Of a DNA stretch of 31,302 bases, positions 5,568-28,964 are shown in pieces. The translations under genes were made by a program, and so were the position numbers. Source of the stretch: a virus; IMG/VR virus record IMGVR_UViG_3300028189_000040, positions 1 through 31,302 of that record. One strand, 5' to 3'. Below the pieces are notes generated by a model. That model did not search any database. It worked only from the letters and a program-made list of their open reading frames with translations, and was not told where the DNA came from. The stretch's first letter is position 1. Every line of letters begins with the position of its first letter.

Positions 5568-8500
5568 TATCTTCTCTCCTCTTCGTAGGTGAAGCTGAGA
5601 TCCCCTACTTGGAAATAGCTGAACCTGTTAACCCTAATCTCACCAACTACCCCAGTCCCATCACCACAAGTATAATTGATTTCAATGACATAATCTGAAG
5701 GAGTTTCTCCCAAAGGTAATGACAGCATAAGTTTTCGAGTGGAGTTTGGTATCTCGGTGAGGACTCCACCCGTATTGATATAGGCTTTTTCTAAACCTAC
5801 GATGCTACCTTTCGTGCCGATCCAGTTTGTTGATACTTCTCTTTGACCAACCGAAAGGGTGTCGATTTGTTTACTGTTCAAAAACACCCTAGCGTTTGAC
5901 CCTCCACTTGAAGCAGGAACATGGTCTAACTGAACATCCATGAGCCATACTTTGTGGCTAGAACTTGTAAACTCTGAGACTTCCACGGGTATGGTTGGGG
6001 TTACTTTTTCACGAAGAATCTGATCACCCTGTGATAAAGAGAGTTCAGTTAAAGGAACAGAGACATAAGATACCCCTTGAACAGAGTCTATCTCCCGAAT
6101 GAAATCGGAGGGGTATAAACTACCACCTAATGAGGTTTCTGTTATTCTGTTGAACAGAGCGGATTTGAGAATGGAGTCCACGCTAGTAGCTGATGCTCCT
6201 TGCTCTAAGTAAACAAGACCTTTCACATTAACTCGTACTGGGGTTACTTCTTTTATGAGGACATCAGCACCCATGTGCTTTTGCTCATCTACTTCTATTT
6301 GTAGGTTTGAAACAACAAGGTTTGTCTGATAGGTGACAGTGATGTTTTCAAGAAACTCATAGTCAACCAAGACTGTTTGACTCGATGAGATTTCACTTGA
6401 AGTAGTTCTCCTAATCATTGTGAGATCATCATTTACTTCGATCACATAATCGGGGCTAGCGGAGGTAAGGGGGCTTGCGAAAGTATTCCCGTTTGAATCT
6501 TTGGCTACAATTGAGGTGATATCGATACCTCGATTTAAGAGGGTTTCGGCATACAATTCATTGAGTGTATGTGTTTCTCCTGTGACCTCAATGATTTTTT
6601 CTAGCCCGTCATTGTCAATAATGATGTAGTCTTGAGCTTTTGAAGATTGCCCTTGAACGAGAGGGTCTTCGGTTTTATAGAAAGTATATGGCAAGTCAGT
6701 ATTATCTGCTTTGCGTACAGAGATAACGGATTTAGCGGGTTGCTTGTTGAGTATGATTTTATTCGTCACCTCTGTTCGATAGTCTCCCAATATGATGTCA
6801 GTCATGCGATATGTGGGTTGAGGGATATCTGGATCGAGGATGAGGATCTTCCCCTCTGATATGGTAGCACCAGTAAGATCGAAGAACTCGCCATTGGTTT
6901 GGTTTTTAAGTCCAAAGGTATTAGTTCGGTCAATCATTTTAAACAGTGGATTTTCTATGGTGGCATCAGAGGCTTGGAACTTATACGCACCCTCCCTTTG
7001 AATCGGGATGAATCTTGATCCTTTTCTTGCTTTGTAAGAGGGTGCGTACACATCAGTAACTTTGCTTAGGATTTCTCCTCTAACCCAAATGTCTACTTTG
7101 CCCCCTTGACCATTATCCCGAATCATATATGGACTATCAGCGTCTATGACATCATACCCTACTACACCAGCAGATTCTCTGGCTACTCTTTCGTATCCTG
7201 CTTTCGTACCTACATCAACAGAGGAGATGTAAGTCATCGCTCTTGTCATCATTTCTTGGTTTGTTTCTCTACTAGACCCACCGAATGTAGGGGCGTTGTT
7301 ACTCACACTTAATCCTAGTGGAGCACCCGATATGATTTGTCCTGATGTTAGATTTCCACTCAGCCCTGCTGTATCTGCTTGTATCGGTAAGGTGACCTCA
7401 TATCTGCGTGTGATTGGATTGTAAAAGTTTGGGGCTTCGGAAACAGAGATAATACCTTCTTGGAGAGTCCTAAATCTCACACCATTACCAGAGATGATTT
7501 GTCCAATGGGTACAATCAGATCAAAAGTAGGTAGAGACCTAGAGAAAAAGGTAGCCTCACCTCTAGCCACTTGTCCAGATGTTCTAATAATGCCTAGATT
7601 TGATGCTAAACGATCAAAGCAAATGTCGATAAGGTTTTGTACCTGTGTATCGGTATCAAGGAAGTAAGCCTCTTTTAAGAGCTGTTTATAGCTTGAGTTG
7701 GCTACATAAAGAGACTCACCCAACCCTGTGGGGTCGTCTATGTCATTTAATGAAACAAAGTTGGTCGCTTTGTAGCAGAAGTCTAAGAGGACTCTCATGC
7801 GAGAGATCTCTGACACTACTGGGTCTATAAATAAATCTCTCACAGCAGACCCTGCATGAACACTCGCTGTGGAATCAGCGTCATAGATAGCAGAAATCAT
7901 ACTCTCTGTGAGTTGTGAGTCAGTCACATTCGGGAGGGTGGTATTGACAAGCTGTAAGTTAATAGGAGCAGAACCTACTTCAACACTAAAGGTTGATTCC
8001 ACCGATTGGTTATCAACAACCTTAACTGATGTAATCACATAATAAAGAGGTGTGTTGGCATTAAGAGAAGTAAACTCACCTATGTCTACCGTATTTGCTG
8101 AGTCAGGAGTAAGACGATTGTGTTTGAAAGAAACCTTTGTTTCTAGCTCGATTGAGGAAACATTTGTAGCGAATCGTAATCGACTAACACTTTCGGCAAT
8201 TTCTTGTGTGCCTATATCATTCCATGTGGTGTTCTGTAAGGCTTTTATCGTAAGGACATTTGGGTCTTCTTCGATGGTGTCAAGATCACTTGAGAAATCG
8301 ACAATCGAAGTGACTTTTTCAGATTTAGACCCATAGGTGATAGGGTCTATAGGTATCTTGTTAACTTGTTGATACCCATTCCCTCCCCCACTAGTTCTTG
8401 ATGCGTACACATTATAAGAACTAATCTCCGAGTCTGTATGTACCCAGCTAAGAACTACATTATCATCTGCTCGTTCTGCTTTTATGTTTAAGGGTGGTGT

Positions 8501-8845
8501 CGGTCTATTTGTATTTGAGTCTATGCTAGAAATGACAATGAGTGTAAGTGAAGTCGTGTTGTTATTCAGACTGTCAGTTGCTGTGACTAGGAAGTTGTTA
8601 GCCCCTTGATTTAAGTCTATCCCTTCGGTCGTATTTGGGTCTGGAAATGTCCATGCCCCATTGCTGATTTCGATGTCAGCGTCTACTCCAACAGAAGTGA
8701 ATACTTCACCTAAGAACGATACATTGATTTGATCAAACCCCTCAACAAGACCATGAATGAATACTTCTTCTTTATCTGTTGAATAACTTGTTGAATCTGA
8801 TGTGCTTACCCCATCTGGTTTTACTACTTTTAAGATATAACTCAT
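5567..8845 (-). CDS. Baseplate J/gp47-like protein with N-terminal Ig-like and FnIII domains
   Basis: This 1092-aa protein is likely a wedge component of a contractile-tail baseplate. Residues ~25-107 resemble an Ig-like fold, with alternating beta segments and GANNFLVTATDS. Residues ~114-290 look like a fibronectin III domain (PTPPLNIKAERADDNVVLSW and SYNVYASR), possibly with an insertion. Residues ~420-640 carry the baseplate J signature: VARGEATF, an IPIGQ-like segment (IVPIGQIISGNGVRF), ETNQEMMTRAM and VGTKAGYERVARESAGV. The start overlaps the stop of the gp25-like gene as ATGA, and the stop overlaps the next start as TAATG. J proteins are often shorter, so the N-terminal adhesin-like domains and the long C-terminus are additions. 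Confidence 0.85.
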   Translation of the reverse strand: MSYILKVVKPDGVSTSDSTSYSTDKEEVFIHGLVEGFDQINVSFLGEVFTSVGVDADIEISNGAWTFPDPNTTEGIDLNQGANNFLVTATDSLNNNTTSLTLIVISSIDSNTNRPTPPLNIKAERADDNVVLSWVHTDSEISSYNVYASRTSGGGNGYQQVNKIPIDPITYGSKSEKVTSIVDFSSDLDTIEEDPNVLTIKALQNTTWNDIGTQEIAESVSRLRFATNVSSIELETKVSFKHNRLTPDSANTVDIGEFTSLNANTPLYYVITSVKVVDNQSVESTFSVEVGSAPINLQLVNTTLPNVTDSQLTESMISAIYDADSTASVHAGSAVRDLFIDPVVSEISRMRVLLDFCYKATNFVSLNDIDDPTGLGESLYVANSSYKQLLKEAYFLDTDTQVQNLIDICFDRLASNLGIIRTSGQVARGEATFFSRSLPTFDLIVPIGQIISGNGVRFRTLQEGIISVSEAPNFYNPITRRYEVTLPIQADTAGLSGNLTSGQIISGAPLGLSVSNNAPTFGGSSRETNQEMMTRAMTYISSVDVGTKAGYERVARESAGVVGYDVIDADSPYMIRDNGQGGKVDIWVRGEILSKVTDVYAPSYKARKGSRFIPIQREGAYKFQASDATIENPLFKMIDRTNTFGLKNQTNGEFFDLTGATISEGKILILDPDIPQPTYRMTDIILGDYRTEVTNKIILNKQPAKSVISVRKADNTDLPYTFYKTEDPLVQGQSSKAQDYIIIDNDGLEKIIEVTGETHTLNELYAETLLNRGIDITSIVAKDSNGNTFASPLTSASPDYVIEVNDDLTMIRRTTSSEISSSQTVLVDYEFLENITVTYQTNLVVSNLQIEVDEQKHMGADVLIKEVTPVRVNVKGLVYLEQGASATSVDSILKSALFNRITETSLGGSLYPSDFIREIDSVQGVSYVSVPLTELSLSQGDQILREKVTPTIPVEVSEFTSSSHKVWLMDVQLDHVPASSGGSNARVFLNSKQIDTLSVGQREVSTNWIGTKGSIVGLEKAYINTGGVLTEIPNSTRKLMLSLPLGETPSDYVIEINYTCGDGTGVVGEIRVNRFSYFQVGDLSFTYEEERR

Positions 8846-12310: not shown

Positions 12311-12372
12311 AAATCTGACTTTAGGTGGGCAAATATCTTGCTTCGAGTAGGGGGGTGTGGTAATGTAAGGGC

Positions 12373-12399
12373 TGACTTGGATAGATGTCCAATAAGTCA
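12373..12399 (+). promoter_or_regulatory. Hairpin in the leader of the repeat-bearing regulator gene
   Basis: An inverted repeat TGACTTGGA...TCC-AAT-AAGTCA folds as a 6-bp plus 3-bp stem with a 3-nt bulge. It ends 28 nt before the ATG at 12428. No U-tract follows. It could be a 5'-UTR structure or an operator. The rest of 12250-12427 shows no gene; a frame open from 12338 has no ribosome site and its first 30 residues look non-coding. Confidence 0.3.
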
Positions 12400-12427
12400 A
12401 CCTTTAACCCGATTTTCGGAGACACAA

Positions 12428-13369
12428 ATGAGTAATAAAACCAAGGGGTTACACACCCTTAAGGGGAGTAGTTTAGAGGACTACTTTCAGTTAATATGCG
12501 AAGACACATTAGATGATTACTTTCAGTTAATATGCGAAGACACATTAGATGATTACTTTCAGTTAATATGCGAAGACACATTAGAGGACTACTTTCAGTT
12601 AATATACGAAGTCCCTATCGTTGTTGAGAACAAACCTAAAAGAGTTTGGAACGAGACTGAGCATTGGTTATATGGTGTTGAGTGCAAAAACTATGAGCTA
12701 GTTTTAAACCTAGTTCAGAAAAAGACACCCTATAATAATCGCTTCACCTTACCTCAAGATCAGATTGTGAGCTATTTCCATGAGTTCCTTACTGAACAAC
12801 TAATCAAGAACAATCAGCTCAAAAAAGAACTCGATAGGGGTAAAAAGGTCAAGTCCTCAGTCGTGTATGAGTGGTACTTGCAGTATGTGGTTCGTGAGAA
12901 GTATAAAGAGGGTAAAGACTGTCATCAGAGATCTCGTGGTGCGAGGACTCAATCAGAAGTGACTAAAATTAAAGCATACGAGCTAGAGGAGGTAGACACC
13001 CCTTATGCTCCAAGCCATCAGATAAAAAACCTAGAGTCTCAAGGGTTTCAAGTTGCTCAGAGGGTTTCAAAGATGGATGCAGAGACAGGTCAACAAATTG
13101 GCGAACCTGACCTCTATGTACACAACGATGAGTTTCTTTCTATCGAGGAAAGATCAGAAAATGAGTACATGAAAGATTTGTTGCTCAATCGCTTTGGGTC
13201 TAAACAGCTGGATATATATTATGAACTCTGGCTTGAGCTTCGTTATGCTGAGTATGAGAACAAGAAAAATTGGGCTAAATCTCGCAAGGTTTCTTATAAA
13301 GTCTTAACCTCTCGAATCAATCAAATCAAAGATGTGTTTAAAGACAACCTGGAAGCGTTTGGCTATTGA
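12428..13369 (+). CDS. Possible sigma-factor-like regulator with N-terminal 12-aa tandem repeats
   Basis: This 313-aa protein starts at ATG 12428 (MSNKTKGLHTLKG), preceded by GGAG six bases upstream. Residues 18-61 are 3.7 copies of the unit DYFQLICEDTLD. Residues ~155-200 contain VVYEWYLQYVVREKYKEG followed by a basic SRGARTQSEV, which loosely resembles sigma-70 region 2.3-2.4 (an aromatic W-L core, then a basic helix). The C-terminal 60 residues are helical with a basic KSRKVSYKVLTSRINQIKDV segment that could be a region-4-like helix-turn-helix. It is a lone plus-strand gene between two minus-strand late blocks, a position that would suit a late-transcription regulator. The sigma assignment is inference; another DNA-binding protein is possible. 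Confidence 0.4.
   Translation: MSNKTKGLHTLKGSSLEDYFQLICEDTLDDYFQLICEDTLDDYFQLICEDTLEDYFQLIYEVPIVVENKPKRVWNETEHWLYGVECKNYELVLNLVQKKTPYNNRFTLPQDQIVSYFHEFLTEQLIKNNQLKKELDRGKKVKSSVVYEWYLQYVVREKYKEGKDCHQRSRGARTQSEVTKIKAYELEEVDTPYAPSHQIKNLESQGFQVAQRVSKMDAETGQQIGEPDLYVHNDEFLSIEERSENEYMKDLLLNRFGSKQLDIYYELWLELRYAEYENKKNWAKSRKVSYKVLTSRINQIKDVFKDNLEAFGY
12479..12610 (+). repeat. 36-bp in-frame tandem repeat, 3.7 copies
   Basis: Units start at 12479, 12515, 12551 and 12587 (partial, 24 bp). Each encodes D-Y-F-Q-L-I-C-E-D-T-L-D/E. Units are almost identical at DNA level; differences include GAC versus GAT at the first codon and ATATACG versus ATATGCG in the last unit. Such identity implies recent expansion, and copy number may vary between related phages. 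Confidence 0.95.
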
Positions 13370-13452
13370 CCGTAGCTTCGATCAATGACGCTTTGGATGA
13401 CCTCTCTGCTGGAACTGTCCTTTGGATTAAAAGGTCTACCTCATTAATCATT

Positions 13453-14508
13453 TCAAATCGCTTGGACTGCGGGGAGCATAGGGTCACTTGGCTCTAGTAG
13501 ATCTTGATTCTCAGAGACTATAAACTTGATCTTATCATACGCCCAGTTAGTCATCTTAACCACCCCCTGCCCAATCATCTTAAGGATCTTCCATATGACC
13601 TGTACAGGGAACTCTATTAGTACCCTACTAGGTAGCCTTGTGATCTGATAACTCATCCAAGACAAACCTATTATGGCGTAATATACAATAAGTGCAATCC
13701 CTATGACTTTCAGCACTGCGATGATTCCGAATGTCGCTGTGCTTTTAACTATTGACGCTTTAATCGCCCCTATAGCTAGGCCACCTGCCTTCATAATCCC
13801 TAGCCATGCATTCTTCAGAATGAAGTATATTGCAGTCCACACTTTACCTGTGGGTAAAGTTGGAGCATACCCTGAAGGGATTATAGACCAAAGCCATGAA
13901 ATCCCTTCACCTGTATAGTGAGATACTTGGCTAACCACACCACCACCTATATTTAGTACATTTTCCACTACAACAGATTGTGCGTGGAAAGGGGGGAGAG
14001 GGGGGACAGGAGCAACGGCAAATGGATTCCAAAAAGCATTTTTGTTCATGGAAGCATTTTTGAGTTTCACATTTTTATTGTCTCTCACATACCAGAGCAG
14101 GACGAGAGCCATAGTCTCTTTTTCAACTCCTACCTCTTTAGCCATCCCCTCAATGTCTTGCTTCTGATAAGCATTAGCGAACCTACCTAACATATCACCT
14201 GCTTCACCTGGCGAGTTAGTTTTAGCCCCAGCTTCTGCAATCATTTTTTGTACTGGGTCATTGGGATCATATTTAGATTGCCCAATCGCTTTGATGAAGG
14301 AATCCATTGAGTTTAGTCCAAACTGCTTCTGCAAGAACTTTAATCCAGACTTACCTTCGCTAGAAATCTTCTTTCGTTCTTTTGACGCTTCATTTTGCAT
14401 GAAGGCTGAAGCTACATCTTCTTTGACATTATCAAAGAACATCGCTCTCTTTTGCATACGAGCTGTATGGATACGGGCGACTCTATTTACACTTGCATAT
14501 CTATTCAT
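13453..14508 (-). CDS. Probable packaged membrane-segment protein with RVA-type N-terminal tag
   Basis: This 351-aa protein begins MNRYASVNRVARIHTARMQK, one of the recurrent tagged N-termini. Residues ~20-150 are helical and charged. A Pro-rich linker (VAPVPPLPPF) near residue 168 leads to a hydrophobic second half with several possible membrane helices (VWTAIYFILKNAWLGIM, IIAVLKVIGIALIVYYAIIG). A soluble tagged half joined to a membrane half would fit an internal head or tail protein released into the host envelope on infection, but this is inference. The start follows a weak GAGATAAAG site two bases after the GNAT-like stop, so it is translationally linked. Confidence 0.5.
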   Translation of the reverse strand: MNRYASVNRVARIHTARMQKRAMFFDNVKEDVASAFMQNEASKERKKISSEGKSGLKFLQKQFGLNSMDSFIKAIGQSKYDPNDPVQKMIAEAGAKTNSPGEAGDMLGRFANAYQKQDIEGMAKEVGVEKETMALVLLWYVRDNKNVKLKNASMNKNAFWNPFAVAPVPPLPPFHAQSVVVENVLNIGGGVVSQVSHYTGEGISWLWSIIPSGYAPTLPTGKVWTAIYFILKNAWLGIMKAGGLAIGAIKASIVKSTATFGIIAVLKVIGIALIVYYAIIGLSWMSYQITRLPSRVLIEFPVQVIWKILKMIGQGVVKMTNWAYDKIKFIVSENQDLLEPSDPMLPAVQAI

Positions 14509-14510
14509 CT

Positions 14511-15029
14511 TTATCTCAACTTTCGACCTACCATCAAAACAACATCACCAGAGCTGGTCGAAGCATTTGATGTTGTTAAGGATTTCCAAACCCTTAGTGC
14601 TGAAGGGGTTGTAGACCTCGTATTGCAGTAGTTAGGGATAAAGAACATTGGTGTCCTAGACTCTTCCCTAGCTAAGTTGGCGAGTTCTTTATACATTTGA
14701 AGACCTAACTTTTTTGAGCGATACTCCTCATCGACACTGCTCTCTAAGACTTCAAATACAGGGATCTCATCGTGCCATTCAGCATCTATCGCCCATAGTT
14801 CATAAAGGGCTAAAATATCTTCAGAACAGGCATATTCATATAGTTCTTCTAAAGTATGGTTTCCAAACTTACCCTCTATAAAACCTACAACATCCCTATA
14901 TAATTTCACTTTATTATTTACAATCTCTATCGAATGAGTTGAATTTGTATTAGTAAAGTCATCCGTTTCTACGAACTTAATATCAAGACGAGCGATATGT
15001 CTACTCGCAACTCTTTGATGAGGTTTCAT
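14511..15029 (-). CDS. GNAT-like N-acetyltransferase with RVAS-type N-terminal tag
   Basis: This 172-aa protein begins MKPHQRVASRHIARLD, the clearest tagged N-terminus. The rest fits a compact GNAT fold: a strand VFEVLESSVD leading into EEYRSKKLGLQMYKELANLA (residues ~101-120). There, R104-S-K-K-L-G109 matches the R/Q-x-x-G-x-G/A acetyl-CoA pyrophosphate loop, with the first Gly replaced by Lys. It is followed by FFIPNYCN and a final SALRVWKSL helix. The substrate is unknown. The start overlaps the thermonuclease stop (ATGA). If the tag directs packaging, the enzyme may be injected to act on host targets, as T4 Alt is; this is inference. Confidence 0.6.
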   Translation of the reverse strand: MKPHQRVASRHIARLDIKFVETDDFTNTNSTHSIEIVNNKVKLYRDVVGFIEGKFGNHTLEELYEYACSEDILALYELWAIDAEWHDEIPVFEVLESSVDEEYRSKKLGLQMYKELANLAREESRTPMFFIPNYCNTRSTTPSALRVWKSLTTSNASTSSGDVVLMVGRKLR

Positions 15030-15394
15030 CTCTTACCACCGTCATAGGCTTTAGCATGACCCATGCGGATCATTTCATCGTTAAGTGATTCACCTAGATC
15101 ATCTGCATCTTCGGTGTAATCCCACATAACGCCAAGCCACCTACCGAACTTACCCTTTTTAAGGGTTTGTACGATAATGGTTTTACCTTCGATTCGGGAC
15201 TTTAGGTAGTCCTTAGCGGCATACCCTCTTTTTTTCTCATCAAGGTCTTTAGTGCGTATCTCAGGGGTGTCAATCCCAATCATTCTTACTTTGACTCTGG
15301 CGAAGTGTTTCATGCCTTGGTCAATCATAAGGGTAACTGTGTCTCCGTCATATACGGAAAGAACTTCAGCTTTGTAGTGGTATAGGTATTTCAT
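15026..15394 (-). CDS. Thermonuclease (SNase/TNase-like) family nuclease
   Basis: This 122-aa protein matches the staphylococcal nuclease fold over its whole length. Visible motifs are YDGDTV (D16, D18), VRMIGIDTPEI with R37 and E45, and GRWLG with R85. These correspond to the calcium-binding Asp and the catalytic Arg-Glu-Arg residues of the family, so it should be an active Ca-dependent DNA/RNA endonuclease. No signal peptide is seen. It sits in the late operon between a Gly-rich structural protein and the GNAT-like gene. Start at 15394 with AGGATAAAT upstream. Roles could include host DNA breakdown or virion-associated nuclease activity; context does not decide. Confidence 0.9.
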   Translation of the reverse strand: MKYLYHYKAEVLSVYDGDTVTLMIDQGMKHFARVKVRMIGIDTPEIRTKDLDEKKRGYAAKDYLKSRIEGKTIIVQTLKKGKFGRWLGVMWDYTEDADDLGESLNDEMIRMGHAKAYDGGKR

Positions 15395-15396
15395 AT

Positions 15397-16620
15397 TTAT
15401 CCTACAATCATGTAGTTAATAAAAATATCAACTGCCCCAACATTACCATTTGTGAGATCGAACCCTACAGTGAAGTCTGTATCTGGTGTTATGTCTGAAA
15501 CATAAGGTGCAGTGGCTACAGTTACACCTGCTACGGTTTGGAGTGTTACAGTGATAATACTTTCGGCTCGGAGTACATTTAGAAAGTCTGCATCTGCAAT
15601 GATGTGTTGGGTGAGTTGACCAATAGCAACATTAATAGTTTCTTTCTTTACGAGGAAACCATTCCCTGTGGATACTACATTAGAGTTCCCATCAATAGAA
15701 AGTAGCCCCTTATCCATGTTTGCGATTTTAAGATTGCCGTTAGTAGCCCCTGCTATACCCGTCATAGGTGCTAGAGTGATGTTACCACTTCGATTGCCTA
15801 CGCCTAAGCCTGCTCCTGCTTCAAGGTAGATATCCCCTCCGTTACCGTTTATGCGATCCTCGCCTGTCACGATCAGAATATCTCCACCTTTATCTTCATG
15901 CCCCTGTCCTGTTGTGATTGAAATCGTACCCCCTTTTCCCCCAAACTCTCCACCACTTCCAGTTAAAATCTCAACATCACCTCCGTTTTTACCGTTTGCG
16001 TCTTGGGCATTAGAATCCAAACCATACCCTGTCTTGACTCGAAACTCTCCACCCCCTGTACTGCCATTTCCCACAGCGTACCCTGCTGATGTCATAAATA
16101 CCATATCGGCATCACCAGCGTCATTAGGTATATTGGTAGACGGATGAGCGATAACTCTTAACATTGAGTCATCATCATCATAGAAGAAGTCTATGTATCC
16201 ATTACTGACACCACTCTTACCATTGATTCTGATACCTTGATCGTTCACATCGGGATCTTCGCCACCATTTCCTGTGGGGTCAGTTGCGTATAATGTAACA
16301 CCTTCGACCAGTTCTAACGCACCACCGTCAGATCCCTCAAAGGTTGTAGTGATATGACCACTAGCGATCAAAGCCTTAATGGATCCAGACTCGTAAGACT
16401 TCTCAACTCGGTCTGTGAAGTCCAGAGTAACAAAGTTGTTACCTCCTGTAGTGAAAGTAAGTTGGCTTGGTGGTGCGATTGACCTAGTGAACTGACTTTG
16501 ATCAAGATTATCCGTTAAGTCATTGAAGTAAACTGTGAATCCTTCTGCGGTTAGTTCTTGGTTAGTGCGAGGGTCAATAGGCCCTTTTCCTGTGTGTGTT
16601 ATTCTGATTTTAGTAGCCAT
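15397..16620 (-). CDS. Gly-rich beta-repeat structural protein
   Basis: This 407-aa protein has a central run of about six repeats of the form G-G-x-I-x-I-x-T-G-x-G (GGDVEILTGSG, GGTISITTGQG, GGDILIVTGED, GGDIYLEAGAG), spaced about 20 residues apart over residues ~185-285. This pattern suggests a beta-helix or stacked-sheet fibre. The N-terminal ~130 residues and the C-terminal ~100 (a beta-rich VAPYVSDITPDTDFTVGFDL) probably form caps or assembly domains. It is likely a fibre or virion-surface protein, expressed late: an exact copy of the putative late promoter lies 41 nt upstream. Its ribosome-binding site (GGAAAGGAT) is in the 3' arm of a hairpin. Confidence 0.65.
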   Translation of the reverse strand: MATKIRITHTGKGPIDPRTNQELTAEGFTVYFNDLTDNLDQSQFTRSIAPPSQLTFTTGGNNFVTLDFTDRVEKSYESGSIKALIASGHITTTFEGSDGGALELVEGVTLYATDPTGNGGEDPDVNDQGIRINGKSGVSNGYIDFFYDDDDSMLRVIAHPSTNIPNDAGDADMVFMTSAGYAVGNGSTGGGEFRVKTGYGLDSNAQDANGKNGGDVEILTGSGGEFGGKGGTISITTGQGHEDKGGDILIVTGEDRINGNGGDIYLEAGAGLGVGNRSGNITLAPMTGIAGATNGNLKIANMDKGLLSIDGNSNVVSTGNGFLVKKETINVAIGQLTQHIIADADFLNVLRAESIITVTLQTVAGVTVATAPYVSDITPDTDFTVGFDLTNGNVGAVDIFINYMIVG

Positions 16621-16625
16621 TACTT

Positions 16626-16659
16626 TATCCTTTCCTGTTATAATTACTAGAAAAGGATA
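16626..16659 (-). promoter_or_regulatory. Ribosome-site-sequestering 5'-UTR hairpin
   Basis: On the minus strand TATCCTTTTC pairs with GGAAAGGATA (10 bp including one wobble) around a 14-nt loop. The 3' arm contains the Shine-Dalgarno of the gene starting at 16620. The hairpin begins one base after the exact late-promoter motif, so it may be close to the 5' end of the mRNA. Confidence 0.5.
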
Positions 16660-16660
16660 G

Positions 16661-16678
16661 AGATAAAGAAACTATTAA
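16661..16678 (-). promoter_or_regulatory. Putative late promoter, exact 18-nt copy
   Basis: The minus strand reads TTAATAGTTTCTTTATCT, identical over 18 nt to plus-strand 29238-29255. It starts within the stop codon of the holin-like gene 16675-17046 and lies 41 nt before the Gly-rich protein start. Function is inferred from recurrence upstream of late-type genes. Confidence 0.55.
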
Positions 16679-17046
16679 TCTTTGGACTCTGGTGCTGGTG
16701 TCTTATCTAAACCCACTGTGGATTTTATTTTTGACTTGATGATTTTGATAACATAAGCATTTAATGCCCCTGCCGAAGCTCCGAGCCATAGATCTAAAAT
16801 ATCATTACTTAAAGAGTACCCTACAATCGCTCCTGTAATGACAGCAAAGAGGCGAATAGCGGCTTCAGATTTTTCAGCACAGGTTTTGAAGATGAATGGT
16901 TTTACAATTTCAGTGACCGCATAACTAACAATAGCCGCCACGACTATGAGATACACATGACCAATATGATCATATTTTTCTATTTTAGGAGCAGGTGGCC
17001 CCATCAGAGTCTCGGTCGTTTCAGTTTTTTTAGTCTCTTTACTCAT
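16675..17046 (-). CDS. Holin-like membrane protein (paralogue 2)
   Basis: This 123-aa protein has a short polar N-terminus, then hydrophobic segments HVYLIVVAAIVSYAVTEIV, AAIRLFAVITGAIVGYSL and LWLGASAGALNAYVIKII, and a charged Lys-rich tail. Size, 2-3 membrane segments and charged C-terminus fit phage holins, which open the inner membrane for endolysin release. It is clearly paralogous to the protein at 17423-17929: both have a VKPFI(F/W)KTC(A/T)EKS(E/D)A segment and a GASAGA(L/I)NA(Y/F)VIK segment. Start at 17046 with AGGAGG upstream. It may be the holin of the pair or an antiholin; no endolysin is recognised in the window. Confidence 0.6.
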   Translation of the reverse strand: MSKETKKTETTETLMGPPAPKIEKYDHIGHVYLIVVAAIVSYAVTEIVKPFIFKTCAEKSEAAIRLFAVITGAIVGYSLSNDILDLWLGASAGALNAYVIKIIKSKIKSTVGLDKTPAPESKD

Positions 17047-17073
17047 AAGCCTCCTATGGTTTTCAAAGCATCC

Positions 17074-17430
17074 TTACAAGTGATTCTTTAATAATCTATA
17101 TACAGTATCTGTCGCTTCGTCTAAACTATCAACTTTAATGTCTCTACCATGAGGGTTAGACACAGTTAAGACCCGATAAGATAGATTCCCTTTTTTGTCC
17201 ATTTCAAGACCAGTAATCTCAGACAAGAAACCATCTGGTGTAGTAGTCCTAATCACTTTCTTCCTGTCTTGCCCCATAATGGACATGACTTTGTATTCAC
17301 CTTTTGGGAAAGCCCATTGTAATCTTTTAACTGCTCTTCTTATTTCCTGATTGCTAACAGGAGTACTAAGTAGTCCAAATAATCTTGCTTCCATATATTT
17401 TGAAGCAACTCGTTGTAGTGATTTATTCAT
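17074..17430 (-). CDS. Unknown protein with RVAS-type N-terminal tag
   Basis: This 118-aa protein uses the ATG at 17430, inside the end of the upstream holin-like gene (GAAGATGAATAA), with AAGGAAAAAGAAG as ribosome site. The frame is open 14 codons further upstream, but that part lies wholly in the neighbouring gene. It begins MNKSLQRVASKYMEARLFGL, a tagged N-terminus. The rest has a helical VSNQEIRRAVKRLQWAF segment then beta-like strands (YKVMSIMGQDRKKVIRTTT) and a short helical end. No family is recognised. Lying between two holin-like paralogues, it may be a packaged late protein or part of lysis timing. Confidence 0.5.
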   Translation of the reverse strand: MNKSLQRVASKYMEARLFGLLSTPVSNQEIRRAVKRLQWAFPKGEYKVMSIMGQDRKKVIRTTTPDGFLSEITGLEMDKKGNLSYRVLTVSNPHGRDIKVDSLDEATDTVYRLLKNHL

Positions 17431-20561: not shown

Positions 20562-20599
20562 AGGAGGGTGAGAACTATATTTATAAGGAGGTGCAACGA

Positions 20600-23341
20600 A
20601 TGTTTGCAGATATGCTTGAGTCATTAAGACGACCAAATATCCAACCCAAGTTGTGGATGAAAGACACAGAAATGATCTTGGGTACTAAAGAGAACCTTGA
20701 TCAGTGTATTGATGAGTGTATCAACAGTCCAGTTGGTGCTTATGGTCTTGACCTTGAAACAACAGGTCTTGATAATCGTGTATTCGATGGTCGCACTAAA
20801 GATTCCATTGTTGGTGTTTGCCTGTCAGCACATAGGGACAAGGGGTATTATTTCCCTGTTGGTCATCAAGAGGGAGTTGAACACAACATTCCTTGGAGAT
20901 TAATGCACCCAGCACTTGAGCGATTGCTTGATCCAAGCGTAGAAGCACAACCAATCTTCCATAACGCAGGTTTTGATCAAGAGTTCTTGGAGTTTAATGA
21001 ATACAAGTCGGGTCTAGGAGAGGAGCGTTGGGATTCTTTTAAATGGCATGACACTTACATCATTCAGTATCTCTTGAACCCTCGTGAAAAAGGTGGTCGA
21101 GGACTAAAGCATTTAACTAATGTTCACCTTGAGCGAGAGATGATTGAGTTATCAGACCTCATGCCCGATGCTCCCGACAAGAATTACTCTAAACTTGATG
21201 TGAGCTGGGAACCCTGTGTTTGGTATGCCGCTAGTGATGCAATGTGTACGCTTGGGCTGTGGGAAGTTTTGTATAAGAAGTACAGTGAAGCTAAAGAACA
21301 CACTAACTCGATGTATAAGTTAGAGCGTATGTGTCTACTCTCGACTCGGTGGATGCACAGAAATCGTGTGTACATTGATCAAGATACAGCCTTGAAGTAC
21401 AGTCAGCAAGGGCAGAAGCTATGGTTTGACTCTTTGATTGAGGTCTACGATGGAGCGAAAGAGATCTTAGGTCGAGACATTACACCTAACTATGTGCGAG
21501 TCCTCAAGGGGAGTCTAAAGGGAGATAATAAGTTTAATCACATGGAAGTGGAGGGTATGAGTTATAAAACTCGTGTAGATGAAGCTCGTAAGGAATCCCT
21601 TCGACTTTATCCTGATGAAAAGGGTGTGGTTACTAAGGCTGTAACGGTTCTCGGTAAGAGTGTAGGTACTGAGGAAGTGGAGTTTCCATTAACCTATGAC
21701 ATTTTATCTCCTCAAAAGCTCGGTCTGTTATTTAGAGAGTTGAGTGTACCAGGGCTTAAGGCGAGTGAAAAGTCGGGGCAGGTCGTGACTTCTAAGGACA
21801 TTCTTGAAGATGTGATTAAAAATGCGGCTGAAGACTTTCCTTTTATGGCTAAGGTTAAGACCTTTCGAGAGCTTGGGAAGGCAATGGGTCAGTATCTCAT
21901 TCCATTTGTAGAAGATGTTGGACCAGATGGTACGCTTAAACCTAAGTTTGATCAGTTTGGTGCAGACACAGGTCGTTTTTCCTGTAAGACGAATAGCAAG
22001 CCTTGGAAGGTCAAAGATGGAGGGTGTCGTGTACCCTTTCAAGGCATACCTGCTACCTATGACCCAAACAAACCCGAAGCGATTTCTAAGATGCGTTCAT
22101 GTGTGTCTGTGCGAGATGATGATTGGTGGTTAGCGGCCATTGACTATGCAGGTGTAGAGCTTCGGTTAGTAACCAACCTTAGTCTTGAGCCTAAATGGAT
22201 CAAGGCTTTCTTTGAGTGTTCTGAATGTGGCACAGCTTATCCTAAAGAACTCCAAGAGGATGGGTTCGCTAAAGCACCTCCTTCAAACTGTACTGGTTGT
22301 GGGTCGGACAAGATTGGAGACTTACATACAATCACAGCAGTTGCATTTTATGGTGAGGGAGCTAAAAATCGTGATGATTGGAAAGCATTAAGAGGGAATG
22401 CTAAGGGTTGCAACTTTGCGTTGTCCTACGGAGGTACAGGTAAAGCTGTTCAGCGTACTATTGGTTGCTCTTCTGAAGAGGCTGATGAGAAGTTCAAGAA
22501 GTTCACTTCGACCTATCGTGAGTTGACTAAATGGTGGTCTAAGCAACACAACTTTGGTCGTAAACATGGTTATGTAAAGACGGGTATGGGTCGGGTTCAA
22601 CCTTTACCCGACATCAAATCTGATGACTTTAGGTTCAAGTCCAAAGATGAGCGTAAGGCAGTGAATGGCCCAGTTCAAGGTACAAGTGCTGATGTGACTA
22701 AGTTGGCGATGAGCTTCATCTATCAAGAGACTAAGAAGCGTGGCTGGCAAGACAAACTGATGATGGTCTTAACAGTACATGACGAAATCGTGTTCGAGAT
22801 TCATAAGTCAATCTTGAAAGAAGCGATTGACATCATTTCTGAATTAATGACTCGCAACAAAGTCATTAAGCGTTTAGGGTGGCAAGTTCCTTTACTTGTC
22901 GATGTTGAGCTTGGTAAAGATTGGACAGTGCCTTTTGATGAGAAAGATGTGATTGCAGGAGAAGCAGGGGATAAGATCATCAATGCCAAGTACAAGTGCA
23001 GAGAGGTAGATTGTGATGGAAAAACACCTCGTGATCCTAAGCCGACCTCATGTATGCACTGTGGCTCTAGCAACATCTATTGTGATTACACAGAGGAATT
23101 CATCGCCAAGATCAAAAGGCAGACAGAACAAATTTATGCAGACTATGGAGTAAACCCCGATAACATAGTTAAAAAGAAGGTCGTAGAAGAACCCGTTCAG
23201 AAAACCCACGCTCTTCCTACTTTTTGTGTAGAGGAACTAACTGAGGAGATCGCAAAAGACCTTGCCGATTGGATTAAGTCGCAAGATGGTGAGTATGATG
23301 TGGTATATGGAGGTCGTAAAATCAATGCTTTGTTAGAATAG
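20600..23341 (+). CDS. polA: Family A DNA polymerase with 3'-5' exonuclease and two Cys-pair zinc-ribbon-like insertions
   Basis: The ATG at 20600 is eight bases after AAGGAGG; a GTG at 20591 overlaps that site and is unlikely. The 913-aa enzyme lacks a 5'-3' exonuclease domain. Proofreading motifs are LDLETTG (~res 50), HNAGFD (~120) and YAASDA (~210). Polymerase motif A is DYAGVELRL (~515), motif B is RGNAKGCNFALSYGG (~598) and motif C is VHDE (~728), so the catalytic Asp residues are present. The position equal to E. coli F762 is Phe. Unusual additions are CSECG...CTGCG (~540-569) between motifs A and B, and a Cys cluster near 798-820 (KCREVDC, CMHCG) followed by a ~95-residue tail. It replicates the phage genome. 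Confidence 0.95.
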   Translation: MFADMLESLRRPNIQPKLWMKDTEMILGTKENLDQCIDECINSPVGAYGLDLETTGLDNRVFDGRTKDSIVGVCLSAHRDKGYYFPVGHQEGVEHNIPWRLMHPALERLLDPSVEAQPIFHNAGFDQEFLEFNEYKSGLGEERWDSFKWHDTYIIQYLLNPREKGGRGLKHLTNVHLEREMIELSDLMPDAPDKNYSKLDVSWEPCVWYAASDAMCTLGLWEVLYKKYSEAKEHTNSMYKLERMCLLSTRWMHRNRVYIDQDTALKYSQQGQKLWFDSLIEVYDGAKEILGRDITPNYVRVLKGSLKGDNKFNHMEVEGMSYKTRVDEARKESLRLYPDEKGVVTKAVTVLGKSVGTEEVEFPLTYDILSPQKLGLLFRELSVPGLKASEKSGQVVTSKDILEDVIKNAAEDFPFMAKVKTFRELGKAMGQYLIPFVEDVGPDGTLKPKFDQFGADTGRFSCKTNSKPWKVKDGGCRVPFQGIPATYDPNKPEAISKMRSCVSVRDDDWWLAAIDYAGVELRLVTNLSLEPKWIKAFFECSECGTAYPKELQEDGFAKAPPSNCTGCGSDKIGDLHTITAVAFYGEGAKNRDDWKALRGNAKGCNFALSYGGTGKAVQRTIGCSSEEADEKFKKFTSTYRELTKWWSKQHNFGRKHGYVKTGMGRVQPLPDIKSDDFRFKSKDERKAVNGPVQGTSADVTKLAMSFIYQETKKRGWQDKLMMVLTVHDEIVFEIHKSILKEAIDIISELMTRNKVIKRLGWQVPLLVDVELGKDWTVPFDEKDVIAGEAGDKIINAKYKCREVDCDGKTPRDPKPTSCMHCGSSNIYCDYTEEFIAKIKRQTEQIYADYGVNPDNIVKKKVVEEPVQKTHALPTFCVEELTEEIAKDLADWIKSQDGEYDVVYGGRKINALLE

Positions 23342-23351
23342 GATTACAAGT

Positions 23352-23474
23352 ATGTTTTTTGAGTATGGGAAAAAAGAAGAGAAGAAGATAGACGATTACA
23401 CTTGGGTAAGAGATGGGTGCTTATACGCCCCCGAACCAAATCGACAAACAGATACTTTTTTTGGAGTTCTCTGA
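23352..23474 (+). CDS. Small unknown protein, 40 aa
   Basis: A 40-codon frame begins at ATG 23352 with AGGA about eight bases upstream. Its TGA (23472-23474) directly abuts the ATG of the next gene (TGAATG). The peptide begins MFFEYGKKEEKKIDDYTWVR. It fills the only gap between the polymerase and the acyltransferase-like gene, and the tight stop/start junction supports real translation. No family is recognised. Confidence 0.5.
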   Translation: MFFEYGKKEEKKIDDYTWVRDGCLYAPEPNRQTDTFFGVL

Positions 23475-24401
23475 ATGTGGAAGTTGCTTGAGTTAAGACA
23501 TTTGAAAGAGATAACACCATTTGTGTCTTCTGCTCTGGATAGAGGGTTGCTTTGTTATAACTATGAAGCTCTGAAGTATCTGTCTAACTATAAAAATCAG
23601 TGCTTATTCAAGATAGAAGATGATGTCCTCTATCTGGGTCGGCACTCAAAAATCATAAACACCAAGTATTTTAAGCTCTACTTTTCTCCGATACATATTG
23701 GTGGAGATGAAGATAAAGAGAAAGAAGCACTCATTCGGAGTTTAAGAGAGGGTCTGTCTGCATGGGTAGGTTTAGAAGAAGCCAAGAGGTATAAAGTAGA
23801 TTATCGCAAAGTTAGTGAGTTCAGGGGTGGTGTTCAGGTGAATTATCACAGGCCCGAAGGTTTTAGTGGTAATAAAAACAAAAATATAAGGTGGGAGATC
23901 AACAGGTTTAATAAGGCTTTAGAGAACAATGAACTTGAGGTAGTTGTGGATTATCCTTTGGAGAGGCTATCTCACCTCAATGACACCTGGAATGTTCAAA
24001 AAGGGGGTGTTTGTAAACTCTTTGGGTACGCTATTAAACACCGATCTAGTATCGACCATTTAAAGAACCTCACCTTACTGAAAGACAATAAACCCATCAC
24101 ATCTAGTCTTTATCGGTGTTATACAGATCACACATGGCTTTGTGTAGGGGCAATAAGTGATTATGATAAGATACCGTTTGGTGGTCTTCAAAGGATGTCA
24201 GACATACACATATTCAATCTTATGCCCGACCTACAAAACTTAGTTGTAGGGGGTTATAAAGATGACCCCCTCAAGAAGTCAAAGTTGAGGGGTGGTTCTT
24301 ATTCTTTATATTGTAATGTAACTTGCCCCTCAACAGTTAAAATGACTACAGATATGTGGAGTTCATTCAGACCTAAAAAAGAAACATACTTCGAGGTTTA
24401 A
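23475..24401 (+). CDS. GNAT/DUF2156-like acyltransferase candidate
   Basis: This 308-aa protein starts immediately after the preceding stop. It looks like a tandem GNAT-fold protein of the DUF2156/FemAB type. A central KNIRWEINRFNKALENNELE (about residues 137-156) resembles the 'R-x-x-x-N-R-F' helix that opens the second half of such proteins. It is followed by LSHLNDTWN, LLKDNKPITSSLYRCYTDHTW and a late NLVVGGYKDD, which resembles the glycine turn near acyl-CoA or aminoacyl donors. Members usually move an acyl or aminoacyl group to an amine. Its partner downstream is a PLP enzyme, suggesting that an amino-acid-derived group is made and transferred. The target is unknown; fold assignment is by eye. 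Confidence 0.4.
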   Translation: MWKLLELRHLKEITPFVSSALDRGLLCYNYEALKYLSNYKNQCLFKIEDDVLYLGRHSKIINTKYFKLYFSPIHIGGDEDKEKEALIRSLREGLSAWVGLEEAKRYKVDYRKVSEFRGGVQVNYHRPEGFSGNKNKNIRWEINRFNKALENNELEVVVDYPLERLSHLNDTWNVQKGGVCKLFGYAIKHRSSIDHLKNLTLLKDNKPITSSLYRCYTDHTWLCVGAISDYDKIPFGGLQRMSDIHIFNLMPDLQNLVVGGYKDDPLKKSKLRGGSYSLYCNVTCPSTVKMTTDMWSSFRPKKETYFEV

Positions 24402-24403
24402 TC

Positions 24404-25315
24404 ATGTATGATCTAATAAAGACTTTAGACCCCATAGAAGAACATGAGGGGTATCTTGTTAAGCGTGGAGATAAATTTAAGTTAGGATATGTCAACGGCT
24501 CTAAGGTTCGGCAGAGTATAAACATAGTCAGTGAGAACTTAGACCTCATCAAAGAAAAGCATGGGGGTTCTCTTATCGTGAGTGGTGGACTACCCTCTGC
24601 TCAAACATCTGCGGTAGCTCAAGTGGCAAAGCATTTTAACTTAGAGTGTATCGTTTGTGTTCCTAGATACGACAACTCAAAGGTAGACCTTAACCGTATC
24701 AATATATCTATAGCTCAAAAGGTGGGGGCGAAAATCTTTGGTGTGAGCAACCCTCAACCTTCGGGTTCTAAATGCGATGTTAAATGGCACATAGAAAATA
24801 GCAACCCTTATGAAATAAACTTTGGGGATATAGGTTATCTAGCTCTTGATCCTATCATATACCAAGTACAGAACATTCCTAACAAGGTAGAAGAAATTAC
24901 TGTGATCGCGGGGTCAGGCTTTTCTGCACTAGGTGTTTTAATGGGTGTTAAAAAGTATGGGAAGTCTAATGTTAAAGAAGTGAATATAATAGATGTGAGC
25001 GGATTCACTGAGGCAAATAAGTCAAAGTGGTATGACCCCCTCCCTCAAGATCAAAAGTTTGATGGTGAGGTCAATCTAGTAAGTTCAGAACACCCTTACC
25101 GAAAGTCTTTGAAGACTTACCCGATGTTCGATTACACTTATGAGTCGAAAGCATGGGATTGGATGGTTAAGAACAGAGAGCCAAGTTTAAACCATTTGTT
25201 TTGGGTTGTAGGGATGAAAAGTAGAGATCTCAGTTTAGTAGAACCTATTAAATGGTATACCTCTGGTTATCAGGATGCAATAAACAAGAAAAAGAACCCA
25301 CAATACTACTTTTGA
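24404..25315 (+). CDS. PLP-dependent enzyme, fold type II (D-cysteine desulfhydrase/ACC deaminase-like)
   Basis: This 303-aa protein has a pattern fitting fold-type II PLP enzymes. LVKRGDKFKLGYVNGSKVRQ resembles 'K-R-E-D...G-G-N-K-x-R-K', making K34 the probable Schiff-base lysine. VSGGLPSAQTSAVAQVAKHF (~59-78) resembles 'G-G-x-x-S-N-H-x-x-x-x-A', with Gln in place of His. AGSGFSALGVLMG (~170) resembles the phosphate-binding glycine loop. Family members do beta-elimination, deamination or racemisation on small amino acids. The protein may supply an amino-acid-derived building block for the neighbouring acyltransferase. GAGG precedes the ATG by eight bases, and the gene is 2 nt from the upstream stop. 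Confidence 0.65.
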   Translation: MYDLIKTLDPIEEHEGYLVKRGDKFKLGYVNGSKVRQSINIVSENLDLIKEKHGGSLIVSGGLPSAQTSAVAQVAKHFNLECIVCVPRYDNSKVDLNRINISIAQKVGAKIFGVSNPQPSGSKCDVKWHIENSNPYEINFGDIGYLALDPIIYQVQNIPNKVEEITVIAGSGFSALGVLMGVKKYGKSNVKEVNIIDVSGFTEANKSKWYDPLPQDQKFDGEVNLVSSEHPYRKSLKTYPMFDYTYESKAWDWMVKNREPSLNHLFWVVGMKSRDLSLVEPIKWYTSGYQDAINKKKNPQYYF

Positions 25316-25324
25316 GGTATGAGT

Positions 25325-25885
25325 ATGAAGCCCACTAAAGATTTCTTTATCGAGTGCAACGAGGGTGGTTTAATGAGTCCGCCAGAGTTTGAGCGTACCT
25401 TTTGCAACCAATGTAAAAATAGAGAGTGTGTTCGTGCAGACTGGGCGTTCACTAAGTGGGATAGGCGTATCCTCACGCAATCAGATAGATTGCTTGTGAA
25501 TCCTAATATAATTGCTCAGAATAAGTCGAGTAGGTGGGATGGGATTTCTAACTTCGAGGGGTTTCAAGAGCCACAGGTGATTGAAGTGTGGGGTGTTTCG
25601 GAGAAACCCTCTGACACTCCCCCTTTGATTGTTTCGGAGGAAGAGGATACAGTACCAGCACAACCTGTTGAACCTCCAGAGGTTGAGGGGGCAATAGAAA
25701 CTCAGCCCCCTCAGACGCAACCTCAAGTTTACCAAAACCCCCTAAATACAATCCCCCAAGAAATAATTATAGGGGAATCCTCAAAACCTGATCACTCAAA
25801 ACCACGCCCAAAAAGATTCCAATCTGACCCGTGGACTGTAACCGAAACGCTACCCGTGGGTGGCAAGTTTAAGATGGGGAAATAA
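25325..25885 (+). CDS. Cys-cluster protein with Pro-rich tail
   Basis: The ATG at 25325 has GAGG seven bases upstream and is preferred over the one at 25319. The 186-aa protein has C11 and a compact cluster C27-x2-C30-x4-C35 (FCNQCKNRECVRADW), probably a zinc or iron-sulphur site, followed by KWDRRILTQSDRLLVNPNI. Residues ~95-165 are rich in Pro, Glu and Gln and probably disordered. The last 25 residues are basic. It directly follows the PLP enzyme and belongs to the same operon, so it may act as a nucleic-acid-binding or scaffold partner. The family is not recognised. Confidence 0.6.
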   Translation: MKPTKDFFIECNEGGLMSPPEFERTFCNQCKNRECVRADWAFTKWDRRILTQSDRLLVNPNIIAQNKSSRWDGISNFEGFQEPQVIEVWGVSEKPSDTPPLIVSEEEDTVPAQPVEPPEVEGAIETQPPQTQPQVYQNPLNTIPQEIIIGESSKPDHSKPRPKRFQSDPWTVTETLPVGGKFKMGK

Positions 25886-27281: not shown

Positions 27282-27743
27282 TTATAAAGACAGCAATGAC
27301 CCACATACTGTGTCCTCCTCTTGCTCTGTATCTTGATAGTTTGATTTATCCAGTGCGTTCTCTAAGGGTGTCATGTTAAAGCCATAATCTTGATATTTTT
27401 TATGTACTCTCATAAGATAATCTTGAGTTGGGGCTACTAGATCTTTTCGGTTCGTATAATAAACATGAGCTGAGACATAGTTTCCGTCATGACCCATAAT
27501 GTCGAGTATAGACAGTGAAGAACCCTCTCTGGGTTCGGATAACTCTTGATGATCTACGGTGTATAAAACGCCCTCAACAATGTCATTAAATGACCCTTTA
27601 TCTATGGAACATACTCCATCACTAGAGAAGATGAGTTTAAAACCCCTCAAGGTTGCGAACAGGTGAAACCTAGCACTAGGGTGGTAGTCAACCATTGTGT
27701 GTTCTTCAAGACAAAGACCATAAGCGAAATAAAGAGCTTTCAT
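27282..27743 (-). CDS. Gamma-glutamylcyclotransferase-like (GGCT/AIG2 fold) protein
   Basis: This 153-aa protein opens with ALYFAYGLCLEEHTM, resembling the 'Y-F-A-Y-G-S-N-L' substrate loop of GGCT enzymes (Ser-Asn replaced by Leu-Cys). ATLRGFKLIFS, DIVEGVLYTVD and YVSAHVYYTNR follow in the family's order. The canonical 'L-D-x-x-E-G' catalytic glutamate region reads SILDIMGHDGNY here, so the usual Glu seems to be missing. Activity is therefore doubtful; it could bind a related ligand or use another residue. AAGGAACACAGT precedes the ATG. It is the last gene of a three-gene minus operon. Confidence 0.55.
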   Translation of the reverse strand: MKALYFAYGLCLEEHTMVDYHPSARFHLFATLRGFKLIFSSDGVCSIDKGSFNDIVEGVLYTVDHQELSEPREGSSLSILDIMGHDGNYVSAHVYYTNRKDLVAPTQDYLMRVHKKYQDYGFNMTPLENALDKSNYQDTEQEEDTVCGSLLSL

Positions 27744-28530: not shown

Positions 28531-28782
28531 ATGACAACCTCATTAAGACACGCTCGATCTATACAACAAAAGTTATTATCAAGCAAAGAAAGTATTCGTT
28601 CAATTCTATCTTACAATAGTTATAGGAAAGATGACTCAATATGTTCAGATAAAGAGTTACAACAAAAACTAAAGCAAGTCGATAAAGAGCTTGGTAGGCT
28701 ATTAGAGTATGTTAAAACGCTTGAATCTAAAGCCCGAAGGGTTAAAAGAGAAGAGGGATTAAAGAAAGAAGGAGACAAATAA
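28531..28782 (+). CDS. Small basic coiled-coil protein, 83 aa
   Basis: The protein begins MTTSLRHARSIQQKLLSSKE and ends in a helical Lys/Glu-rich coiled-coil region (QQKLKQVDKELGRLLEYVKT). Its stop shares the TAATG junction with the FmdB-like gene, supporting real translation. Its own ribosome site is weak (AGAAGAAAG). No family is recognised. Confidence 0.5.
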   Translation: MTTSLRHARSIQQKLLSSKESIRSILSYNSYRKDDSICSDKELQQKLKQVDKELGRLLEYVKTLESKARRVKREEGLKKEGDK

Positions 28783-28964
28783 TGCCGACTTACAACTACA
28801 GATGTAAACAAGAAGAATGTAAACATGACTTTGAAGCCACGCATAAAATGAATGACCCATCACCTCCTTGTCCTAAATGTAAGACAGAAGACCCCCAGAA
28901 ACTTATCTCAAAGAGTTCTTTTATATTAAAGGGAGAGGGATGGTTTAACTCTGGTGGATATTGA
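28782..28964 (+). CDS. FmdB-type zinc ribbon protein
   Basis: This 60-aa protein begins MPTYNYRC and contains C8, C13, C30 and C33, then LISKSSFILKGEGWFNSGGY. This matches the FmdB / CxxC-CxxC zinc-ribbon family almost end to end ('M-P-x-Y-x-Y-x-C...C-P-x-C...F-x-L-K-G-x-G-W'). The first pair is spaced C-x4-C rather than the usual C-x2-C. Family members are small putative regulators and are frequent in phages; the molecular role is not settled. It is coupled to the upstream gene and overlapped by the next. Confidence 0.9.
   Translation: MPTYNYRCKQEECKHDFEATHKMNDPSPPCPKCKTEDPQKLISKSSFILKGEGWFNSGGY

Follow-up and report, generated by a model that had tools for sequence, protein, structure and literature searches.

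Phage Mu makes Mom, a GNAT-fold enzyme that acts on DNA bases, and the FemX/MprF form of the fold (DUF2156, LPG synthase C) normally acts on peptides or lipids. PLP enzymes belong to another group of phage DNA-modification systems, being among the conserved 5-hmdU genes of Ackermannviridae (PMC6336734) and likewise among the 5-hmdU genes of the M6-like phage SN1 (PMC9476957). ABC-ATPase-GNAT proteins have been predicted to acyl-modify DNA bases (Iyer et al., as cited in PMC7824862).

Here we analysed a virus record of 31,302 bases (IMG/VR IMGVR_UViG_3300028189_000040), a genome fragment hereafter called the window, in which genes for a GNAT-type transferase (A) and a fold-type II PLP enzyme (B) lie behind the gene of a family A DNA polymerase (Pol). 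B belongs to the same broad family (phrog_3650) as the PLP enzymes of Ackermannviridae/ViI and M6-like thymidine hypermodification but falls outside their clade; the near relatives of the window have no detected 5-hmdU kinase, and a FemX-like transferase is unreported for those pathways in the literature searched, which yielded no paper on FemX-like enzymes in DNA modification at all. A shares the GNAT superfamily with the ABC-ATPase-GNAT proteins of jumbo-phage DNA-modification islands, and one of these shares an island with homologues of A; A, however, lacks an ATPase and belongs to the tandem GNATs of the FemX/MprF type. Unlike Mom, A resembles aminoacyl transferases; Mom is absent among the listed fold matches of A, and no Mom-type locus was found. 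Compared with FemX/MprF, whose fold it has (Z 11–13.5), A lacks a membrane domain, is only ~12% identical, sits in phage DNA-modification cargo and bears an aromatic C-terminal tail. ACC deaminase, a PLP enzyme that shares fold type II with B, is the nearest PDB sequence to it (E 1e-3), whereas the closest phage relatives of B, ~28% identical to it, adjoin DNA-modifying enzymes. The locus points to a new enzyme combination for phage DNA decoration, in which a transferase of FemX/MprF fold is paired with a PLP enzyme.

A two-gene insertion between Pol and C

Pol (20591–23341, plus strand; PF00476, E 2.7e-64) borders the insertion site on the upstream side and lies outside the A+B cassette. It has 22 relatives in IMG/VR, on fragments and on large contigs, the longest measuring 619 kb, plus one in a 485-kb uncultured phage, and from these sizes the source of the window is probably a jumbo phage. 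A script made the ORF calls in the relatives automatically, and some of the family names given for them were read by eye.

Behind Pol, on the plus strand, lie A (23475–24401, 308 aa), B (24404–25315, 303 aa) and C, a four-cysteine protein of 188 aa (25319–25885). The first-pass annotation had treated these three tightly packed ORFs as one operon. The packing was borne out, with gaps of 2 and 3 nt, but the grouping was not, because C follows Pol in many relatives without A or B. In the near relatives L004–L007 and L018, whose Pol is 91–94% identical, C comes directly after Pol, A and B are absent, and the empty site measures 13 bp. The blastn match of the window with L004/L005 runs to 23339 and resumes at 25324. 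A and B are therefore a two-gene insertion (cargo) within a variable segment between Pol and C (23342–25318), of which C forms the right border. The trio was not found together in any other genome, and the A+B pair was also seen nowhere else, the window being the sole contig that carries it.

The C-x2-C-x4-C cluster and the Pro-rich tail described for C were both recovered, together with a fourth invariant cysteine. C is found behind Pol in most relatives, with C13, C29, C32 and C37 invariant and a conserved VGGxFKMGK/G end. The direct succession of Pol and C in relatives lacking A and B argues that C is a core gene of the Pol locus, outside the A+B pathway.

Directly upstream of A, and missed in the first reading, is a 40-codon ORF, MFFEYGKKEEKKIDDYTWVRDGCLYAPEPNRQTDTFFGVL (23352–23474, plus strand). 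A 408-aa protein of L008, encoded by a whole gene (12751–13977) at exactly this site, begins like the first ~24 residues of the ORF and ends like its last ~16. The L008 protein has an SPPYF motif and matches N6_N4_Mtase. The window ORF is an in-frame remnant of an SPPYF N4/N6-type DNA methyltransferase whose catalytic core has been lost; METHYLTRANSFERASE once occupied the Pol–A site of the window. More cargo is found near Pol in L013, with methyltransferases, an ABC-ATPase-GNAT and a QueC-like protein, and in L016, with three methyltransferases.

The fold of A and the family of B

The earlier description of A as a GNAT/DUF2156-like protein agrees with its predicted structure. The AF2 model, built on 3 sequences (pLDDT 70, pTM 0.71, residues 261–308 of low confidence), is a tandem GNAT that VIA-align matched to 2hqy, a protein of unknown function (Z 16.6), to MprF/L-PGS/A-PGS (Z 12–13.5; 4v36, 13.5), to FemX and the aminoacyl-tRNA-dependent peptide synthases Sbb17 and Sba18 (Z about 11) and to the arginyltransferase ATE1 (Z about 10), the matches to 2hqy, 4v36 and FemX extending over ~240 residues. 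A itself has no Pfam match, and a profile search against PDB sequences returned only chance-like viral fusion proteins. Its homologues are two tandem genes in the near relative G002 (44% and 30% identity), the second of which matches LPG_synthase_C/DUF2156 (PF09924) at E 9.6e-4, below the Pfam cut-off. Annotated phages, all other IMG/VR records, the genomes of bacteria and archaea and seven additional relatives yielded no further homologue, the contig scans being ones that need short near-exact peptide matches and that distant homologues could escape. PADLOC gave no match for A, B or C.

A second trio of GNAT, PLP and methyltransferase genes was considered at L048 and L068, where ~340-aa proteins adjoin PLP and methyltransferase genes, and is not claimed here: profile comparison of these proteins with A was negative, Pfam and PDB gave nothing useful, and an AF2 model (pLDDT 32) left a GNAT fold unsupported.

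B is a fold-type II PLP enzyme, as first proposed (PALP, E 2e-6, below the Pfam cut-off; phrog_3650, E 1e-15). Its candidate PLP lysine, K34, is invariant in 9 diverged relatives, and G170 of the phosphate-binding glycine loop, which reads GSG in B, is invariant in 9 sequences. B also has a C-terminal extension, ending NPQYYF, that is absent from its relatives. By tblastn, B matches 244 phage records, mostly of Salmonella, Klebsiella and Escherichia phages; the annotated phages matching at 26–30% identity include Ackermannviridae, and the PLP proteins of two Ackermannviridae records match phrog_3650 at E 1e-179 and 1e-240. An alignment scan of IMG/VR found 123 relatives, from which 80 loci were kept, forming 37 groups at 80% identity. 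In the tree, B stands on a long branch beside methyltransferase-linked, radical-SAM-linked and island PLP enzymes, and is excluded from a clade of TS/TET/Ackermannviridae PLP enzymes (27 rows, support 100/99). This placement indicates that B is not simply a ViI-type PLP enzyme. Profile comparison of the B family with the island PLP enzymes gave E 3e-14.

At L044, L046, L047, L055, L081 and L084, a B-like PLP gene lies beside an apparent spore-photoproduct-lyase-like radical SAM enzyme, and most of these loci have ParB-like proteins too, both read by eye. An apparent S-adenosylmethionine synthetase adjoins the PLP gene of L044 (by eye).

DNA-modification neighbourhoods of the relatives

The homologues of A lie in an island behind a DnaB-like helicase gene of G002. 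Three SPPYF methyltransferases are followed there by the two A-like genes, a QueC-like/Asp_Arg_Hydrox fusion, a methyltransferase, an ABC-ATPase-GNAT and then a T5orf172 gene; no PLP gene was found on this 107-kb fragment. Between helicase and T5orf172 gene, G004 has methyltransferases, a TS-like gene, an Asn-synthase-like PP-loop gene, a fold-type II PLP gene and a methyltransferase, and the cargo of G005 and G007 is like that of G004 in the parts fetched. As the gene sets differ at a like position in G002, G004, G005 and G007, modification modules seem to replace one another at one set position in this lineage. A distant TS-like gene is present in G004, G005, G007 and G010 and absent from the 31-kb window fragment. 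A 5-hmdU kinase was detected in both Ackermannviridae controls and in none of 9 Pol relatives, the window itself being a 31-kb fragment.

In L028 the fusion of a QueC-like PP-loop domain to an Asp_Arg_Hydrox (2OG) domain spans 13112–15121 within the modification island. Both domains also occur as genes of their own, the QueC-like one in L013 and the hydroxylase one in L016. PADLOC matched the L028 methyltransferase at 7487–8707 weakly to the MADS defence protein mad2 (E 7e-7) and the ABC-GNAT at 16296–17423, again weakly, to mad3 (E 3e-6).

DNA-modifying genes lie within 5 kb in 26 of the 37 groups of phage relatives of B, the partners being TS/5-hmdU kinase (10), TET/JBP (11) and DNA methyltransferase (5); all 37 groups derive from a single scan and some are related to one another, so the tally makes strong context but does not amount to 26 independent events. 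In a reverse scan from the SPPYF methyltransferase, a PLP gene was found within 6 kb in 19 of the best 79 loci, and in 8/8 of the loci among them with a TS-like protein.

A module of SPPYF methyltransferase, TS-like, Asn-synthase-like, fold-type II PLP and methyltransferase genes recurs at L122 (2271–10542), L123 (12507–18873, minus strand), L124 (3250–8125) and L126 (201–8404), in relatives as well as in other phages. It looks like a separate DNA modification pathway, matched to none described.

Aromatic C-termini and a proposed role for A and B

A ends KKETYFEV, its homologues KPQTYFGV and KPNTYFGV, and B NPQYYF. Similar tails are found on the SPPYF methyltransferases of the lineage, in forms such as EPKWNQDNFFGV, and on its ABC-GNATs (QDNFFGV, QDNFFEV or HTPFF), so that the tail is present in 3/3 of the A family, 4/4 ABC-GNATs and most SPPYF methyltransferases. 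A double-aromatic ending occurs in members of 8 of the 189 families in the lineage sample, a descriptive count, as this loose pattern was chosen after the tails had been seen. Five of the eight are DNA-modifying or proposed to be so (methyltransferases, ABC-GNAT, A, B and a D12 methyltransferase), the other three being Nudix and two others. Under the stricter pattern Q..[LFYM]F, sought in the C-terminal 12 residues, 19 of 426 ORFs qualify where 0.9 would be expected; every one is a DNA-modifying enzyme, but most are mutually related SPPYF methyltransferases, and the excess therefore overstates the number of independent events. Q..[FYL]F fits the methyltransferases and ABC-GNATs of the island, whereas A and B keep the aromatic end only and fall outside the strict Q..[LFYM]F. 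Judging from these sequences, the aromatic tail is nearly confined to DNA-modifying enzymes in this lineage, with A sharing it and B, whose tail is similar, probably doing so too. Tails of this clamp-like kind are seen on unrelated DNA-modifying enzymes at L028:7487–17423, L130:5986–10996 and L013:13265–18942, and many of the methyltransferases also start M[FL]F[ED]Y.

The bacterial clamp-binding consensus is QLxLF (PMC2705854), and two D12 methyltransferases end close to it, in QLDLFGL and QVDLFGI. In T4, gp43, gp55 and gp33 carry C-terminal clamp-binding motifs that can stand in for one another (PMC2988020). In T4-like loci, polymerases end KFFSF, TLMDFFN and ASLEAFFG, and similar tails (TLESFWN, TLDSFFE, VKHNFF) occur on a small number of methyltransferases nearby and on a single PLP enzyme, most methyltransferases there having none. 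The replication operon of L043 (5086–12446) runs from clamp and clamp loader through a methyltransferase and a PLP gene to, further on, DNA polymerase; its methyltransferase ends TLESFWN and its polymerase TLMDFFN. From the likeness to QLxLF and to T4-type tails, it is a reasonable inference that the tails bind a sliding clamp, as a candidate function. No clamp was found in the window lineage with the Pfam beta-clamp models, the T4-clamp models or a custom clamp alignment that detects that of L043, so a host clamp or another partner would have to serve.

The first-pass annotation had suggested, as one possibility, that a PLP enzyme and a transferase modify DNA bases. This idea is well supported by context, through the TS, 5-hmdU kinase, TET/JBP and methyltransferase genes near relatives of B, the homologues of A in an island and the tails; C, which it had grouped with A and B, is not part of the pathway. 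We consider it fairly probable that A and B, in the cargo site next to Pol, form an exchangeable module for the hypermodification of DNA bases, A serving in acyl or aminoacyl transfer and B in amino-acid processing, both tethered to a clamp. DNA as the target is the better supported part and is likewise rather probable, while the specific chemistry is put forward tentatively. In the order of steps we infer, A would attach an acyl or aminoacyl group either to a DNA base itself or to a group already present on it. Like the PLP enzymes of phage thymidine hypermodification, B might then process an amino-acid moiety, with decarboxylation and elimination as examples. The aromatic tails would bring A and B to new DNA via the sliding clamp, and the modified phage DNA would escape host nucleases.

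Several observations favour this DNA-modification reading: A and B occupy the Pol–C site beside the remnant of a methyltransferase kept whole in L008; the homologues of A lie amid methyltransferases, a QueC-like/2OG-hydroxylase fusion and an ABC-ATPase-GNAT; PLP groups and DNA-modifying genes are neighbours in both scans; the second cargo site of near relatives combines TS-like, AsnB-like, PLP and methyltransferase genes; and the tails are common to the DNA-modifying enzymes of the lineage. It is weakened by the restriction of the A+B pair to the window and the lack of a PLP gene with the G002 homologues of A, by the long branch of B outside the TS/TET/ViI clade, by the failure to find a 5-hmdU kinase or clamp, by the departure of A and B from the strict tail pattern, and by the usual peptide and lipid substrates of the FemX/MprF fold.

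Alternatively, A might aminoacylate a host protein, as in the N-end rule or in FemX-like fashion, with B supplying or removing the amino acid, for host takeover from a cargo site reached by chance. The match of A to ATE1 would fit, and acetylation of host RNA polymerase by phage GNATs is on record (PMC7824862), but we regard this as unlikely, given that the only homologues of A lie within a DNA-modification island and bear its common tail, and that relatives of B accompany DNA-modifying genes. Membrane lipid is a far less probable substrate. MprF and L-PGS/A-PGS are among the closest named fold neighbours of A, and MprF-like aminoacylation could act against superinfection or antimicrobial peptides; yet the two domains of A, at 308 aa, are too small to include the membrane flippase domain of MprF, and the context of A is DNA modification.

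A metabolic role is about as improbable as a host-protein target. B would then be an ordinary auxiliary metabolic enzyme resembling ACC deaminase/D-cysteine desulfhydrase, its substrates would be free amino acids or compounds derived from S-adenosylmethionine, in the service of the methyltransferases, and A would act on a small molecule. ACC deaminases are indeed the nearest solved structures to B, and its L044 relative adjoins the apparent S-adenosylmethionine synthetase, but the genes that the PLP family keeps company with are those of DNA kinases, TET/JBP and TS, not metabolic ones, and the extension of B carries an aromatic tail like those of DNA-modifying enzymes.

A more specific form of the DNA-modification reading, which we hold to be doubtful, is that A charges a DNA base with an amino acid from aminoacyl-tRNA and B reworks it in situ, both on a host or phage clamp and coupled to the fork. 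Use of aminoacyl-tRNA by A, if true, would be a DNA-modification route not found in the open-access literature searched. The short clamp-like C-terminal motif may be a common address tag on unrelated DNA-modifying enzymes that are swapped beside replication genes. It offers a simple sequence test for further phage DNA-modifying enzymes and a direct test of coupling between DNA hypermodification and replication.

Elsewhere in the window, an ORF at 12338–13369 has about four tandem copies of a DTLDDYFQLICE-like short peptide in its N-terminal part, 27282–27743 encodes a gamma-glutamyl-cyclotransferase-like protein (phrog_2520, E 7e-11), and 28782–28964 a Zn_ribbon_8 protein (E 1.3e-11).
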